A stretch of 37,694 nucleotides of DNA from Pseudomonas sp. Ga0074129 (lineage in GTDB: Bacteria > Pseudomonadota > Gammaproteobacteria > Pseudomonadales > Pseudomonadaceae): contig LNDO01000048.1 in NCBI GenBank assembly GCA_001465025.1, positions 1 to 37,694 on the forward strand, written 5' to 3'. Positions 1 to 37,694 of the stretch are shown here, in pieces (position 1 is the first letter of the stretch; the number at the start of each line of letters is the position of its first letter). Under the pieces are notes generated by a model that saw only the letters and a program-made list of their open reading frames with translations, had not been told where the DNA came from and made no database searches. The translations under genes and the position numbers were made by a program.

Positions 1-96
1 TGCGCTTGAATCCTTTGGTGTGAGAGCCTGGATTCTACCGGTGGCTGGCCCTCTGCCTATCGTTTCAAGCGTTGCACTTATTCTATGAATTCAGGT
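1..96 (+). repeat. 96-bp inverted repeat, left copy
   Basis: Bases 1-96 are identical to the reverse complement of 37597-37692. The match breaks at base 97, about 97 bases before the sthA start, and its outer end cannot be seen because the window begins here. Inside, CGCTTGAA (3-10) and TTCAAGCG (64-71) form 8-bp arms 53 bases apart, with a second weaker arm pair between them. It may be the end of another copy of the element found at the right edge, or a dispersed intergenic repeat. I do not recognise it as an IS end or a tRNA. Confidence 0.9.
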
Positions 97-192
97 AGGC
101 TGCCATTAATTAAATTTTGCTTGCCAGGCGTGTGCGCCTGTTTCAGCCGCAAGTGCAGCATAAGCACTTCGGCCTGTTCTGAAGGAGTAAAC

Positions 193-17479: not shown

Positions 17480-18056
17480 GTAGTACCGTCGGTTTCCGGT
17501 GCTGGCGGAAGCGGCGTTCGGCACACACGACTTCAGGGTCGGTGTCAGGTGCGTCAGGAACGGTCGTAAAGCGTTCCAGTGTCTAGCGGCGATCAGCCAA
17601 TTGTGCTGGACCGCGACGGACGTCTCCTGCTCGCTGTGATAACAGAAAGCACTAAGTCAGGAGGAGGAATCAGCTGTCGGTAGCGGACGAGATAAAGCGT
17701 CTTGGTAAAGCGAGCTGCTACGCGGACCAACAGTTGTACATCTCCACCCTACACGTATCGCTGAAACTCGGGTGCCGCTCGCGAAAATCCGCAGCGGGTT
17801 AACTATTAACGCAACTGTCCAGAGGGGCAGGTTGCGCATCATGGCTTAAAGGCTTTATTTCCGAGTTATTCTCAGCCTTGCAGGCTTTCATTCGTTGAAT
17901 AACCCGTCGGACGGCCTCACGTCCCGAATGGATTGCGTTGGTTGGGGATGGCAGTTTTGGCGATCATCCGCTAACCAGGCCGCTTTTGGCGGCTTTGCGA
18001 CTATAGCAGCAATGATTAAGTGCTTCAATTCCATAAAAAATTGTTATGATTGCGCG
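17480..18056. other. Divergent intergenic region with long rne leader
   Basis: These 577 bases separate rne and rluC. Most are the predicted rne 5' untranslated region, about 514 nt if transcription starts near 17993. I see no convincing gene in it. There is no strong Shine-Dalgarno sequence right before the rne ATG. In E. coli the rne leader (about 360 nt) mediates feedback by RNase E; the same role here is inferred from position and length. Confidence 0.6.
18000..18028 (-). promoter_or_regulatory. Sigma-70 promoter for rne
   Basis: Read on the minus strand, TTGAAG (18028-18023) and TATAGT (18005-18000) are separated by exactly 17 bases. The start is expected near 17993. This is the best promoter match in the gap. 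Confidence 0.75.
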
Positions 18057-31679: not shown

Positions 31680-31797
31680 AAAAAAAACCCGGACTCTGGG
31701 GGATGAGTCCGGGTTAAGACCATTAGGAGTAAATCAAGGCACGCGGTCCACGGTACCTTGCCTGATGGGACGCTTGGGGGGTACGTCGCACATCAGT
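31680..31797 (-). ncRNA. rgsA: RgsA small RNA
   Basis: A leftward transcript of about 118 nt bounded by an RpoS-like promoter and a strong terminator. P. aeruginosa has the RpoS-dependent, Gac-linked sRNA RgsA (about 120 nt) beside tatD, so position, size and promoter type agree. The hairpin AACCCGGACTC / GAGTCCGGGTT (31686-31715) is followed on this strand by eight U. At about nt 68-78 it carries ACUCCUAAUGG, an exact complement of the acpP ribosome binding region at 25136-25146; to my recollection acpP and fis are reported RgsA targets. Identification is by synteny and structure, not by alignment. Confidence 0.8.
31686..31715 (-). terminator. Terminator of RgsA-like RNA
   Basis: An 11-bp perfect stem with an 8-base loop. 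The A-run at 31680-31687 gives the U-run only on the minus strand, which fixes the direction of the RNA. Confidence 0.88.
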
Positions 31798-31804
31798 ACC
31801 CATC

Positions 31805-31811
31805 AGTATTG
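31805..31811 (-). promoter_or_regulatory. RpoS-type -10 element of RgsA-like RNA
   Basis: On the minus strand CAATACT matches the RpoS-preferred CTATACT at 6 of 7 places, including the -13 C. The start is expected near 31797. Confidence 0.55.
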
Positions 31812-32110
31812 GTGAAGATTGCGTATCGTCCAGGCCATTTGGCGGCATTTTTAAACGGATTTGGAATACGCGACGCGCTGCTGAGTCCTCAAGCAGTGGC
31901 CAGCGGGTGTGGTAGAGCCGAAACGGCTGCGGATAACCACGCGCAGATTGCAAACAGGTGGGAGGCACGAGTCCGGCGTGGTTCCGGCGTCGCGATCCGG
32001 GAGGGTGGGGAAACTCGGCATGAGCGGCGTACATGGTCGGATGATCCGTGCAATTTGTCGCTAGTTAGGCATAATACGCGCCTTCGATTTTTTGACCCCT
32101 TAGTCCCTTT

Positions 32111-33822: not shown

Positions 33823-33942
33823 ATGCAAACGTTTCCCATCAGTTACATCGAACCGGTGTTCAGGCCGCCCAGTGAAGCCCATTCGCTGATCTTGCCGGTT
33901 ACCAACGGCTGCTCGTGGAACAAGTGCACGTTCTGTGATTAG
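33823..33942 (+). pseudogene. Radical SAM gene interrupted after its Cys motif
   Basis: Only the first 39 codons remain, from ATG 33823 to a TAG at 33940. The chain begins [20 protein letters not shown] and reaches [11 protein letters not shown], with Cys30, Cys35 and Cys38 of the cluster motif; the reading frame then stops and base composition changes. Intact relatives in Pseudomonas are, to my memory, several hundred residues long and continue with Met-Tyr after this Asp. The missing part is not in the window. I infer insertion of the recombinase element at about 33937-33942. Confidence 0.8.
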
Positions 33943-34384
33943 TTATCCCTAAGTGAGCCCCTAGAAATCACCGAAAAACCCTAGTTCCTTGCGGTTTTGA
34001 GGTTAATCATTGACCCCATGGTCATTTGGCCCGCTCTCCCCCTGTAGTAGTTACCCCAGAAAAGTACACGTTTTCCCAAATCGCATGAGCACAAAGTCAT
34101 AGCGTAGGAACCAGGTCGCATCAGAGTCGGCCAGGAGCGATAGACCTCAGAGGCAGCATCGCCTGACAGTGCTGCCGGTCGCGGTTGTCCTATCGCTGAC
34201 CATCTGATCCGGCTTACGCACAATTAGTGCAGCCTATATAGGTGAGCAAATTGCTTAGGACTGACCTGGGCTGGAATCTCGAGTAAACGCCACTCTGCTA
34301 GGTGGTAGTAACTGCATTGAGTTGAGTTGCGGCGCTAGGGGCGTCCTCATCATTCTGGTTGAGTCACTAACCAGAGTTCACATT
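33943..34384. other. Left non-coding segment of the element
   Basis: No convincing gene is seen; the one leftward reading frame of 80 codons (33981-34223) has no ribosome site or recognisable product. CCCTA occurs three times close to the junction (33947, 33959, 33979), the last as AAAACCCTAG, which recurs at the end of the repeat gene (37514-37523). These could be recombinase arm sites. The segment probably also holds the promoter of the recombinase genes. Confidence 0.45.
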
Positions 34385-34528
34385 ATGCCCAATCCACTCA
34401 ACCTCTTCGATGTCATTAAACACAACGTCGCCTCACACTTCGCCGCTCAGAGAACGCGGTGCTTTCATGGCTTTCGAGAGGATGCTTTACAAAAGATATC
34501 GTCCTACGTTCAAGGTTTGGGGGAGTGA
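34385..34528 (+). CDS. Small 47-residue protein upstream of recombinase
   Basis: MPNPLNLFDVIKHN is the start of a 47-residue frame whose TGA ends 3 bases before the recombinase ATG, with GGGGGAG inside its last codons serving the next gene. That spacing suggests translational coupling. The frame is open further up to a TTG at 34322. The product has no domain I recognise. It could be a leader peptide, a small excision-type factor, or chance. Confidence 0.4.
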   Translation: MPNPLNLFDVIKHNVASHFAAQRTRCFHGFREDALQKISSYVQGLGE

Positions 34529-34531
34529 TCA

Positions 34532-35911
34532 ATGCCAACAATCCTTGAGTCGTCCCACCGAGAATTCAGATCTTTTTTGGTCGATGCAACTGGCCAACAG
34601 CATGTCCTGCCAGTCATCGTGACCGAGCACGGAGTTCTGGAACAGTTTGCTCGATACATGCATTTGAATCACCGAAAGAGCCGTTCTTGGCAGGATTCTT
34701 CGGTTTTTGCAGTGCGGCTGCTGTTGGAATTCATGGAGGCCAACCATGCTTTCTATGACGAGCCGCGCATGCTGTTCACTGCGTTTTCCGATGCATTGTT
34801 CACGGGTACTGTCTCGAACATCGGCGATCCTTCTGGTCTGTTGTGGCAGCCCAGACAGCCGGATGACGCTGGTAGGCTGATCGGCCATATCACGAAGTTC
34901 ACCGATTGGCTGGCGCTCGTCACTGAGGACGCAATGCTTCAGCTTAATCCCTGGCGACAAGCGACTTGGCATGAAGAACGGCTGAATTGGGCTGCGTATT
35001 CGCATCGTAGGGACAACGCATTCCTGTCACACCTTTGGCGCTCCAAACCGCAGACGAGCCAGTCCAGAGCAGTGCGCTCAAGAACGCTGCCGGTGGAGCG
35101 GCAAACGCCCGCCAAGGCATTTCCAGAGGGATATTTTGAACTGTTGGTATCCGAGGGTTTCCGCAGGCGGACGCGAGATTCACGAGGGCCGACAGACCTT
35201 CGCAATGTCCTGATTACCTACCTCATGCACTATGGCGGAGTGAGGCTGTCCGAAGCGCTGTCGCTATGGATCGATGACGTTAGCGTAGAGGACGGGGAGG
35301 TCATCGTCCGTATCTATCACCCTGAGTACGGGCTGACACCTGGCGGTAAAACCAACCGAGCTGCTTGCCTGCAAAGCCAATACGGGCTGCAACCCCGCAA
35401 TAGGCTGGTGAAGGCGACAGATCCACTGTTTCTCGGCTGGAAGAACGGACTGATTACCGACCCGCAACGTCGCTGTTTCGAGATGTTCTTTTATCCCTAT
35501 GATGCTGGGCAGGTTTTTGCTGGCCTGTGGCGTGACTACCATCTTAAACAGCGGGTGAAGCCGAAGGTTGGCGAAGCTCACCCTTATGCCTTCACCAACA
35601 GGGCCGGCCAGCCATATTCGCACCGGATGTTTCGCAAGGCTCACAAGTTGGCTGTTAAGCGGATCGGGTTGGTGTACGAGAAGATGGAAGGCACCACCCC
35701 GCACGGTCACCGCCATGCATTTGGTCAGCGTTTGGCACGTGATGGAGCTTCGCAACTCACGATTAGGAACGCCATGCACCACGTTTCGCTCGAATCAAGT
35801 CTGATCTATACGCAGCCTACGGCGAAACAGATGCGTGAAGAACTCCGCGATTTGGAGTGCCGAATGCGCTTGCGGCATGCACAGGCCGACTGCTTAGTGA
35901 GCAAGGACTGA
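34532..35911 (+). CDS. Tyrosine recombinase/integrase of the element
   Basis: A 459-residue site-specific recombinase. The N-terminal part (about 1-175) contains a SAM-like core-binding region. The catalytic domain carries Arg238 (GGVRLSEAL), His391 and Arg394 (PHGHRHAFG), His416 or His417 (AMHHVSLES) and the nucleophile Tyr426 (SLIYTQP), so the set is complete. An insertion of about 80 residues between the first Arg and the HxxR box makes it longer than phage-lambda-type integrases and like the long recombinases of multi-gene tyrosine-recombinase islands such as GmtY. GGGGGAG at 34519 gives a strong ribosome site. Its base composition is lower in GC than the host genes. The 5-base gap to the next ATG indicates an operon. 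Confidence 0.88.
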   Translation: MPTILESSHREFRSFLVDATGQQHVLPVIVTEHGVLEQFARYMHLNHRKSRSWQDSSVFAVRLLLEFMEANHAFYDEPRMLFTAFSDALFTGTVSNIGDPSGLLWQPRQPDDAGRLIGHITKFTDWLALVTEDAMLQLNPWRQATWHEERLNWAAYSHRRDNAFLSHLWRSKPQTSQSRAVRSRTLPVERQTPAKAFPEGYFELLVSEGFRRRTRDSRGPTDLRNVLITYLMHYGGVRLSEALSLWIDDVSVEDGEVIVRIYHPEYGLTPGGKTNRAACLQSQYGLQPRNRLVKATDPLFLGWKNGLITDPQRRCFEMFFYPYDAGQVFAGLWRDYHLKQRVKPKVGEAHPYAFTNRAGQPYSHRMFRKAHKLAVKRIGLVYEKMEGTTPHGHRHAFGQRLARDGASQLTIRNAMHHVSLESSLIYTQPTAKQMREELRDLECRMRLRHAQADCLVSKD

Positions 35912-35916
35912 AGCTA

Positions 35917-37602
35917 ATGCCAGCCAAGAAGAATTTTTATACCTACCCCGAGGCCCAAGCCGCCGCTCAGGCGCTGTGCATCAATAGTTTTTCTGAATAC
36001 AACAAGCGCTACCGCGAAGACCCGAGGCTGCCGGCCCAACCCAATATGGCCTATGCCGACGCCGGCTGGATCGACTGGTACGACTTCCTCGGCAATAAAC
36101 GGCCCGATTTCTACCCGACCTACTCCGAGGCCCAAGTCGCCGCTCAGGTGCTGAGCATCAAGAGTCGTTCTGAATACAAAAAGCGCTTTCGCGAAGCCCC
36201 GAGGCTGCCGGCCAGCCCAAATTACTCCTATGCCGACGCCGGCTGGATCGACTGGTACGACTACCTCGGCAATGAACGGCCCGACCTTTACCCGACCTAC
36301 GCCGAGACCCAAGCCGCCGCTCAGGCGTTGGGCATTAAGAACCAGCCTGACTACAACAAGCGCTATCGCGAAGACCCGAGGCTTCCGGCCCAACCCAATA
36401 AGGCCTATGTCGACGCTGGCTGGATCGACTGGTACGAACTCCTCGGCAATGAACGGCCCGCCCGCTACAAGACATACGCCGAGGCCCAGGCGGCAGCCCA
36501 GGCACTGGGCATTAAGAGCTATCCTGACTACAACAAGCGCTACCGCGAAGACCCGAGGCTGCCGTCCAACCCCAATCAGGCTTATGTCGACGCCGGCTGG
36601 ATCGACTGGTACGACTTCCTCGGCAATAAACGGCCCGATTTCTACCCGACCTACGCCGAGGCTCAAGCCGCCGCTCAGGCGTTGGGCATTAAAAATCAGC
36701 CTGACTACAGCAAGCGCTACCGCATAGCCCCGAGGCTGCCGGCCAACCCCAATCAGGCCTATGCCGACACAGGCTGGATCGACTGGTACGACTTCCTTGG
36801 CAATGAACGGCGAGACGCCTACCCGACCTACGCCGGGGCCCAAGCCGCGGCTCAGGCGCTGTGCATCAAGAGTTTTTCTGAATACAACAAGCGCTACCGC
36901 GAAGACCCGAGGCTGCCGGCCCAACCCAATAGGGCCTATGCCGACGCCGGCTGGATCGACAGGTACGACTTCCTCGGTAATGAGCGGCCAGATCTCTACC
37001 CGACCTACGCCGAGACCCAAGCCGTCGCTCAGGCGTTGGGCATTAAGAACCAGCCTGACTACAACAAGCGCTACCGCGAAGACCCGAGGCTGCCGGCCAG
37101 CCCCAATCAGGCCTATGCCGACGCCGGCTGGATCGACTGGTACGACTTCCTCGGCAATGAACGGCCAGACCCCTACCTGACCTACGCCGAGGCCCAGGCG
37201 GCAGCCCAGGCACTGGGCATTAAGAACTATCCTGACTACAACAAGCGCTACCGCGAAGACCCGAGGCTGTCGGCCCAACCTTATAAGGCCTATGCCGACG
37301 CCGGCTGGATCGACTGGTACGACTTCCTCGGCAATGAACGGCCAGATCTCTACCCGACCTACGCCGAGGCCCAGGTGGCAGCCCAGGTGCTGGGCATTAA
37401 GAACCAGTCTGACTACAACAAGCGCTACCGCAATGACCCGAGGCTGCCGGCCACCCCCCACACAGTCTATGCCGTCACCGGCTGGATCGACTGGTACGAC
37501 TTCCTCGGCAATGAAAACCCTAGCGCTGCGCTAGCGGACTACCCGCTCATGTGGGCAAATGTTGGGCGGTGGCTGAAGACCCAAACGAACATCACCACCT
37601 GA
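35917..37602 (+). CDS. Nine-repeat phage-integrase-repeat protein
   Basis: A 561-residue protein made of nine copies of a 59-residue unit. Conserved points in each unit are TYAEAQAAAQALGIK, Y-x-KRYREDPRLPA, then AGWIDWYDFLGNERP. This matches what I recall of the phage-integrase repeat family (PF14882, INT_rpt), normally found with or within integrases. A short tail without repeat character (DYPLMWANVGRWLKTQ) closes it; no catalytic domain is present. It likely binds DNA or the recombinase in a modular way, but that is inference. The ATG at 35917 is chosen because AAGGA lies 9 bases before it; a GTG at 35857 would overlap the recombinase by 55 bases. The stop lies inside the right inverted repeat. 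Confidence 0.8.
   Translation: MPAKKNFYTYPEAQAAAQALCINSFSEYNKRYREDPRLPAQPNMAYADAGWIDWYDFLGNKRPDFYPTYSEAQVAAQVLSIKSRSEYKKRFREAPRLPASPNYSYADAGWIDWYDYLGNERPDLYPTYAETQAAAQALGIKNQPDYNKRYREDPRLPAQPNKAYVDAGWIDWYELLGNERPARYKTYAEAQAAAQALGIKSYPDYNKRYREDPRLPSNPNQAYVDAGWIDWYDFLGNKRPDFYPTYAEAQAAAQALGIKNQPDYSKRYRIAPRLPANPNQAYADTGWIDWYDFLGNERRDAYPTYAGAQAAAQALCIKSFSEYNKRYREDPRLPAQPNRAYADAGWIDRYDFLGNERPDLYPTYAETQAVAQALGIKNQPDYNKRYREDPRLPASPNQAYADAGWIDWYDFLGNERPDPYLTYAEAQAAAQALGIKNYPDYNKRYREDPRLSAQPYKAYADAGWIDWYDFLGNERPDLYPTYAEAQVAAQVLGIKNQSDYNKRYRNDPRLPATPHTVYAVTGWIDWYDFLGNENPSAALADYPLMWANVGRWLKTQTNITT
35935..37520 (+). repeat. Nine tandem 177-bp coding repeats
   Basis: The DNA unit is 177 bp and is repeated nine times with high similarity, for example GGCTGGATCGACTGGTACGA in nearly every copy. 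The last unit departs from the consensus after GGCAATGAA near 37516. Such an array can change copy number by slippage or recombination. Confidence 0.92.
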
Positions 37603-37692
37603 ATTCATAGAATAAGTGCAACGCTTGAAACGATAGGCAGAGGGCCAGCCACCGGTAGAATCCAGGCTCTCACACCAAAGGATTCAAGCGCA
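37597..37692 (-). repeat. 96-bp inverted repeat, right copy
   Basis: Exact reverse complement of 1-96. Its inner edge covers the last six bases of the repeat-protein gene, and its outer edge is 2 bases from the window end. Two arm pairs can form a hairpin: CGCTTGAA (37622-37629) with TTCAAGCG (37683-37690), and GAGGGCC (37640-37646) with GGCTCTC (37665-37671, one G-T pair), separated by unpaired 10- and 11-base stretches and an 18-base loop. This is a candidate recombination site or structured RNA. Confidence 0.85.
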
Positions 37693-37694
37693 GA

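Follow-up and report, generated by a model that had tools for sequence, protein, structure and literature searches.

The DNA analyzed here is a 37,694-bp window that makes up the complete contig C48 of a draft Pseudomonas genome in 124 contigs. At its right edge it almost certainly holds the left segment of a gamma-mobile-trio (GMT) island that entered a radical-SAM gene, with gmtZ, the second gene of the trio, split just past a repeat array by an insertion sequence (IS) of the IS30 family and the assembly broken within that IS. The initial annotation had described the same stretch as a compact module consisting of a tyrosine recombinase, a protein made only of integrase-type repeats (INT_rpt), and a 96-bp terminal hairpin. 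We find instead that this module forms the left end of a GMT island, of an INT_rpt-GmtZ type and in other respects standard, and that the "repeat-only protein" is, judged from sequence, the N-terminal array of the large recombinase GmtZ. The third gene and the cargo are missing from the window because the contig breaks within a multi-copy IS30 element. The features on which the argument turns are as follows.

33823 to 33942, plus strand: first 39 codons of a radical-SAM gene, which stop at its CxxxCxxCD motif (from two intact relatives)
33933 to 33938, no strand: CTGTGA, 6 bp of the insertion site retained at the left junction (from intact sites and three other islands)
33939 to 37597, plus strand: GMT island from its left end as far as the IS30 element, 3,659 bp (from junction comparison)
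34532 to 35911, plus strand: gmtY, complete tyrosine recombinase of 459 residues (from NF040693, PF00589, and motif residues)
35917 to 37597, plus strand: first 560 codons of gmtZ, broken off by IS30 (from alignment to the frame of genome G567)
35941 to 37527, plus strand: nine tandem INT_rpt units with a period of exactly 59 codons (PF14882, nine stretches)
37595 to 37597, no strand: CCA, one copy of the 3-bp IS30 target duplication, the second copy of which opens the flank on contig C32 (from flank triplets)
37598 to 37694, plus strand: left end of an IS30-family element (ISPpu17-like), ending at the contig edge; the earlier "96-bp structured repeat" (from plasmid-record matches)
1 to 97, minus strand: this IS30 end again, at the left window edge (from a match within its own genome, 1 to 96, minus strand)

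The recombinase is identified as GmtY because its product scores 494.8 bits in a profile search of the window with NF040693, for which the NCBIfam cutoff is 340 bits (the cutoffs for GmtZ, NF047926, and GmtX, NF040692, are 600 and 40 bits). It also matches PF00589 with 61.2 bits, and R238, H391, R394, H417, and Y426, the catalytic R, HxxR, H, and Y residues, are invariant in all 10 aligned GmtY proteins. Both the completeness of this gene and its kinship with the gamma-mobile trio had been proposed at the outset and are borne out. The open reading frame (ORF) behind it starts at 35917, 5 bases after gmtY, and stays open through 37602. PF14882 recognizes nine stretches in it with a total of 293.6 bits, over the curated cutoff, a score that places the repeats far beyond chance. 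The initial annotation was thus right about the integrase-type repeats and their spacing from gmtY and wrong to see a whole protein in them, as the ORF is truncated and its TGA (37600–37602) is IS sequence, given that the IS starts at 37598.

What had been read as a structured terminal repeat is where that IS begins. The final 97 bases of the window are 94–97% identical to an IS30-family end in 20 listed of 27 plasmid records, mostly annotated as ISPpu17, and a reference plasmid copy of the ISPpu17-like element encodes an IS30-type transposase. The likeness to this element extends to its 3-bp target duplications (below); the window differs in having one end only, with the transposase known from the plasmid reference alone. 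The fold of the end is unexceptional, with an 8-bp stem, –22.7 kcal/mol, and a z of –1.14 (26 of 200 shuffles were as good). At least 22 matches to this left end were found in the source genome when 40 of 55 candidates were scored, and 22 of 22 lie at contig ends, the two window edges among them; at least 20 matches to the opposite end are listed (40 of 63 candidates scored). The same IS has also struck elsewhere: in a Stutzerimonas locus (L193:10300–10485) a gmtZ array is cut by its opposite end and the contig stops there, an independent copy of the situation in the window with the cut at another position of the array.

The triplets that flank the IS copies point to the continuation of the island. 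Of 20 right flanks, 16 share a triplet with a left flank (triplets drawn at random from these flanks gave a mean of 5.4 and a maximum of 12 in 5000 draws), and because this pairing exceeds the random expectation we conclude that the ISPpu17-like element makes 3-bp target duplications. The CCA at the edge of the window occurs, among the 22 left and 20 right listed flanks, only at the right end of C48 and on C32. Read away from the IS, C32 carries a frame that is open for 791 codons, and the two halves align contiguously on an open frame of 1286 residues in G567, another Pseudomonas genome: residues 127–559 of the window half match residues 66–498 with 72% identity, the G567 array having two units fewer than that of the window, and the C32 half matches residues 500–1286 with 80% identity. 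Because of this contiguous alignment, the IS30 element is placed inside one gene. Two further genomes match the C32 half at 88% and 92% identity (80–92% across G567, G549, and G559). This half reaches 604.8 bits against the GmtZ model (positions 47–784 of its 784) and 237 bits against Pfam Integrase_2, and has a tyrosine-recombinase tail with PHSLR, GH, and IYY. It is followed by gmtX (158 bits) and then by hsdM, hsdS, and hsdR, a type I restriction-modification system. Given the link between C48 and C32 that the target duplication supports, the order is gmtY-gmtZ-gmtX and then cargo. The initial annotation had seen no third gene, no cargo, and no catalytic domain for the repeat protein; all three are on C32, and its reading of a minimal or divergent form is wrong as well. 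Its other suggestion, one end of a larger island, was the correct one: the stretch is a known system cut by the window, with gmtX just past the right edge, and the three profiles it had named, for PF14882, GmtY, and GmtZ, all find their matches, the last on C32.

The join itself could be a fault of assembly, with an IS end misattached to a gmtZ that the cell has intact. The final 95–100 bp or so of the contigs are IS sequence, an overlap typical of assemblers at repeats, but both contigs carry the 3-bp target duplication next to the IS, like 16 of the 20 right flanks, and the join falls between neighboring residues of the homologue, which makes such an artefact highly improbable. Contig C123, a guess from its small ORF, was rejected as the continuation, its target duplication being TGA and not CCA. 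That ORF, of 156 residues (L080:95–565), lies directly after another IS30 copy and by eye recalls TnpC-like coiled-coil proteins. At the low end of C32, the first 200 bases (L095:1–200) are 82% identical to part of contig C76 (L108:695–864), which after this part carries a gene resembling by eye one that lies upstream of gmtY in G190; the likeness is possibly that of a second island of the same kind.

Relatives show how the genes are normally arranged. Of 199 Pseudomonas genomes, 11 have a GmtY above the cutoff, and INT_rpt repeats occur in 15 of 398, the source genome being counted in both; in a sample of 274 genomes of the class, PF14882 was found in the source genome only. Among the other 14 INT_rpt genomes, 11 have gmtY, an array and GmtZ core in one ORF, and gmtX on a single contig, one of these (G031) with an extra short repeat ORF in front, and in G559 and G549 the contig stops within the array. 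We also examined the best 80 of 193 confirmed GmtY loci, at least 8 of which lie on contigs equal in length to contigs of the genus surveys, so that the samples overlap. Both the gmtZ core and gmtX are present in 64 of the 80. In 47 loci an array, in some cases shortened, shares an ORF with the core and is N-terminal in every one of them; by our own INT_rpt hidden Markov model (HMM) the fused arrays have 2 to 16 units, 23 of the 47 having two by this model. In three loci the core runs off the contig with no gmtX, and seven have neither core nor gmtX, three of them on contigs that end within 240 bp of gmtY. The remaining six have a repeat ORF without a core, and in all six the contig ends within 160 bp of the ORF; in L167, L170, and L180 the ORF runs off the contig. 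In one locus on a Pseudomonas oleovorans contig (L171:11244–12704), the gmtZ core is interrupted by about 1.5 kb of other DNA.

Several observations weigh against reading the window as the left part of an IS-split GMT island. Profile searches found no match to the GmtZ and GmtX models inside the window, the GmtZ score on C32 is barely above the cutoff, and of five relatives scanned with the same model four exceed the cutoff and G031 falls below it at 585.6 bits. No contig crosses the IS between C48 and C32, and 4 of the 20 right IS flanks have no left flank with a matching triplet. Repeat-only ORFs do exist, as the six core-less loci show; in L193, L209, and L242 the ORF stops 77–156 bp before the contig end, and an IS cut was seen only in L193. 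The array of G559 lies in two overlapping frames, in G506 a repeat ORF stands at a contig end and the 18 kb examined hold no gmtY, and three of the 47 fused loci (L168, L169, and L241) have a short repeat-only ORF in front as well. The short ORFs ahead of fused ones suggest frameshifts, and together G559, L168, L169, L241, and the six core-less loci indicate that arrays are often broken or frameshifted. Finally, L181, L182, L200, and L208 have no gmtZ or gmtX in the following 5.4–8.0 kb; these are possibly decayed or displaced trios.

These last four loci, of 80, would also be the natural company of a real minimal two-gene module, a recombinase with a stand-alone repeat protein and a terminal hairpin but without third gene or cargo, and in the window alone the ORF does have a stop with nothing after it. 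The four lack a repeat gene too, however. The stop and the hairpin are multi-copy IS30 sequence, the reading frame, gmtX, and cargo carry on in C32, and among relatives the array is N-terminal wherever it is fused and ends close to a contig end wherever the core is absent. A module of this kind is therefore scarcely credible. Its removal matters in showing how a multi-copy IS at contig ends can mimic new gene architectures.

A different possibility is that the IS split created a new working protein, the ORF with its 560 GmtZ residues being expressed and binding DNA as a repeat protein in its own right, perhaps in the role of a dominant inhibitor or of a domesticated binder. The ORF is open, begins 5 bases after gmtY, and has a clean end in the IS stop, and an AlphaFold model of two units is confident, with a predicted local distance difference test (pLDDT) score of 90.5. 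There is no sign of retention, though, and the cut that the same IS made in the L193 array looks like repeated damage, so we consider a new protein very unlikely. We return to gmtZ as a gene that the IS30 element has disrupted; as gmtZ is broken, this copy of the island is probably immobile.

The host gene marks the left end of the island. The 5′ part of the radical-SAM gene is 81–82% identical over 37–39 residues to two intact relatives; host sequence ends at about 33938, and the stop TAG (33940–33942) belongs to the island. The remainder of the gene (query residues 38–301) is on contig C67, where it abuts about 0.6 kb of island DNA leading into another IS30 copy. Where undisturbed, the site reads TTCTGYGA and then RATGTACAC; 10 of 398 Pseudomonas genomes have it in this form. 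The gene is split at the same codon in the window genome, G567, G559, and G549. In all four islands the left junction reads TTCTGYGA and then TTAGTTAYCCC, and the right junction reads GTAACTAC, six differing bases, and RATGTACAC. The six bases are CGCAGA on C67 of the source genome and TGACCA, GCCCGA, and CGACCA in the others. The left end of the island, TTAGTTATCCC, is an imperfect inverted repeat of the right end, GGGTAACTAC; in the four islands the imperfect inverted terminal repeats are TTAGTTAYCCC on the left and GTAACTAC on the right. Apart from the copy in the window, the source genome contains no second left-end sequence with up to three mismatches, and a spare radical-SAM copy was found in none of the four genomes, where besides the two halves there are only distant matches of 22–27% identity. 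The radical-SAM site was seen in 8 of the 80 loci, which names the iron-sulfur motif of this gene as a recurrent GMT insertion site. A related island in G507 has the same left end in another gene, whose split peptide ends in GLRHD and which we take to be the nicotinate phosphoribosyltransferase gene. In a Pseudomonas without GmtY over the cutoff (L097:1480–1620), the radical-SAM gene is frameshifted exactly at the GMT insertion site; this could be a trace that an earlier insertion left behind or an error of sequencing.

A 6-bp footprint has been described for strand-biased circularizing elements (SEs) and Tn554 in PMC10214605. The GMT junctions carry a 6-bp footprint as for Tn554-like elements, which adds evidence at the level of the junction to what is recorded for these islands. 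The likeness to Tn554 and SE-type movement lies in the 6 bp kept on the left, the different 6-bp footprint on the right, and the imperfect inverted repeats; the comparison with Tn554 covers the junctions. The island is set apart from SEs, whose four core genes are intA-tfp-intB-srap, in that the 5 bp between gmtY and gmtZ leave no room for tfp. By its sequence, the island starts at 33939 and encodes gmtY, gmtZ with its nine N-terminal INT_rpt units, gmtX, and cargo, with the IS30-family copy and its CCA duplication interrupting gmtZ just past the repeat array. We propose that GmtY and GmtZ jointly exchange strands at the island ends, with GmtX as a putative accessory factor. The island would move like Tn554 or the strand-biased circularizing elements, each insertion retaining six target bases on its left side and depositing six bases of the previous site on its right.

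The far end of the island lies on C67, whose IS-flank triplet, ATT, pairs only with contig C13 among the listed flanks. C13 opens with a DDE transposase, behind which lie a metallo-beta-lactamase-fold protein and an ABC-three-component (ABC-3C) system (CTD4 with trypsin, MComp1, and AAA_23) whose ATPase gene is cut by IS30. The metallo-beta-lactamase-fold and ABC-3C genes (L107:2181–8039) are probably cargo of the same island. If C32 and C13 are island DNA throughout, the window contributes 3,659 bp, C32 9.8 kb, C13 8.0 kb, and C67 0.6 kb to an island of about 22.1 kb, not counting the IS copies or any DNA between C32 and C13. C13 links to C67, but its contiguity with C32 and the order of the two are only assumed, a further point to set against our reconstruction.

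Assigning the INT_rpt repeats to the N terminus of GmtZ raises the question of what they do. The two-unit model is all-helical, with four helices per unit and a predicted template modeling (pTM) score of 0.64, and a Foldseek search of it against the PDB gave six matches, none with E ≤ 0.001. From this model we infer that the array is a helical module that may help GmtZ hold or choose DNA. Units of one island resemble each other more closely than they do those of other islands (window 35941–37527, L136, and L142), and they differ chiefly at positions 3, 16–18, 33, and 35–37 of the 59-residue unit. Agreement on the variable positions among three arrays is weak, with Spearman coefficients of 0.31, 0.41, and 0.54; so is that of the top-ten lists, which have two positions common to all three arrays, a result equaled in 567 of 20000 random draws. 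On the grounds that unit number varies from 2 to 16 between islands, that units are alike within an island, and that they vary at few positions, much like the units of a repeat-based recognition code, one may speculate that the array is a modular, expandable DNA reader with a part in determining the conserved coding motif into which a GMT island inserts, an idea that we regard as improbable. A simple target code for the radical-SAM site is unsupported because islands at that same site have different numbers of units, nine and seven, and by eye different residues at the variable positions.

The defining description of GMT islands is reportedly that of Mahata et al. 2024. Compared with the account of these islands in PMC12715929, the present one agrees in the order gmtY-gmtZ-gmtX, with all three products over the NCBIfam cutoffs, and in defense-type cargo (type I restriction-modification on C32 and, by a probable linkage, ABC-3C on C13). 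It departs from them in that its GmtZ has nine N-terminal INT_rpt units ahead of the part covered by the 784-position GmtZ model, and in the IS30 split. The islands called GInts, as described in PMC5385486, are similar in that their 5′ end holds a recombinase operon with cargo behind it, that they insert into protein-coding genes, and that Pseudomonas is among their hosts, and differ in carrying four gin genes (three integrases and GinD). A literature search on INT_rpt and PF14882 returned one table entry, in PMC8078820, and a search on GmtY and GmtZ listed no paper that by its title treats the subject.

The placement of the source genome in Pseudomonas comes from relatives and from Rfam matches. 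At the gathering thresholds Rfam matched only an rne-II element and the RgsA small RNA in the window (17489–17758 and 31689–31883, both on the minus strand), which fit a Pseudomonas origin. It gave no match at the recombinase and repeat stretch, and no tRNA lies in the window.

The survey also brought out a second association of GMT islands with a host gene. A greB fragment without a start lies upstream of gmtY in 32 of the 80 loci (for example, L194, L207, L237, and L241), within 123 bp of gmtY in 30 of these; it starts at query codon 48 in 31 and at codon 44 in one. Two further GMT islands, L055 and L056, lie beside a greB fragment too. Where gmtX is also in view (28 of the greB-fragment loci), a full-length greB lies downstream in 23, within 76 bp of gmtX in 20 of them, and is 45–93% identical to the fragment; gmtX is present with no spare greB in L186, L188, L205, L216, and L225. 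The GMT island thus seems to bring a spare of the greB that it breaks, a pairing of broken and spare gene that is directly testable. PMC12486829 mentions a "target-gene-like" gene in connection with Tn552-II, which bears tnpABC.

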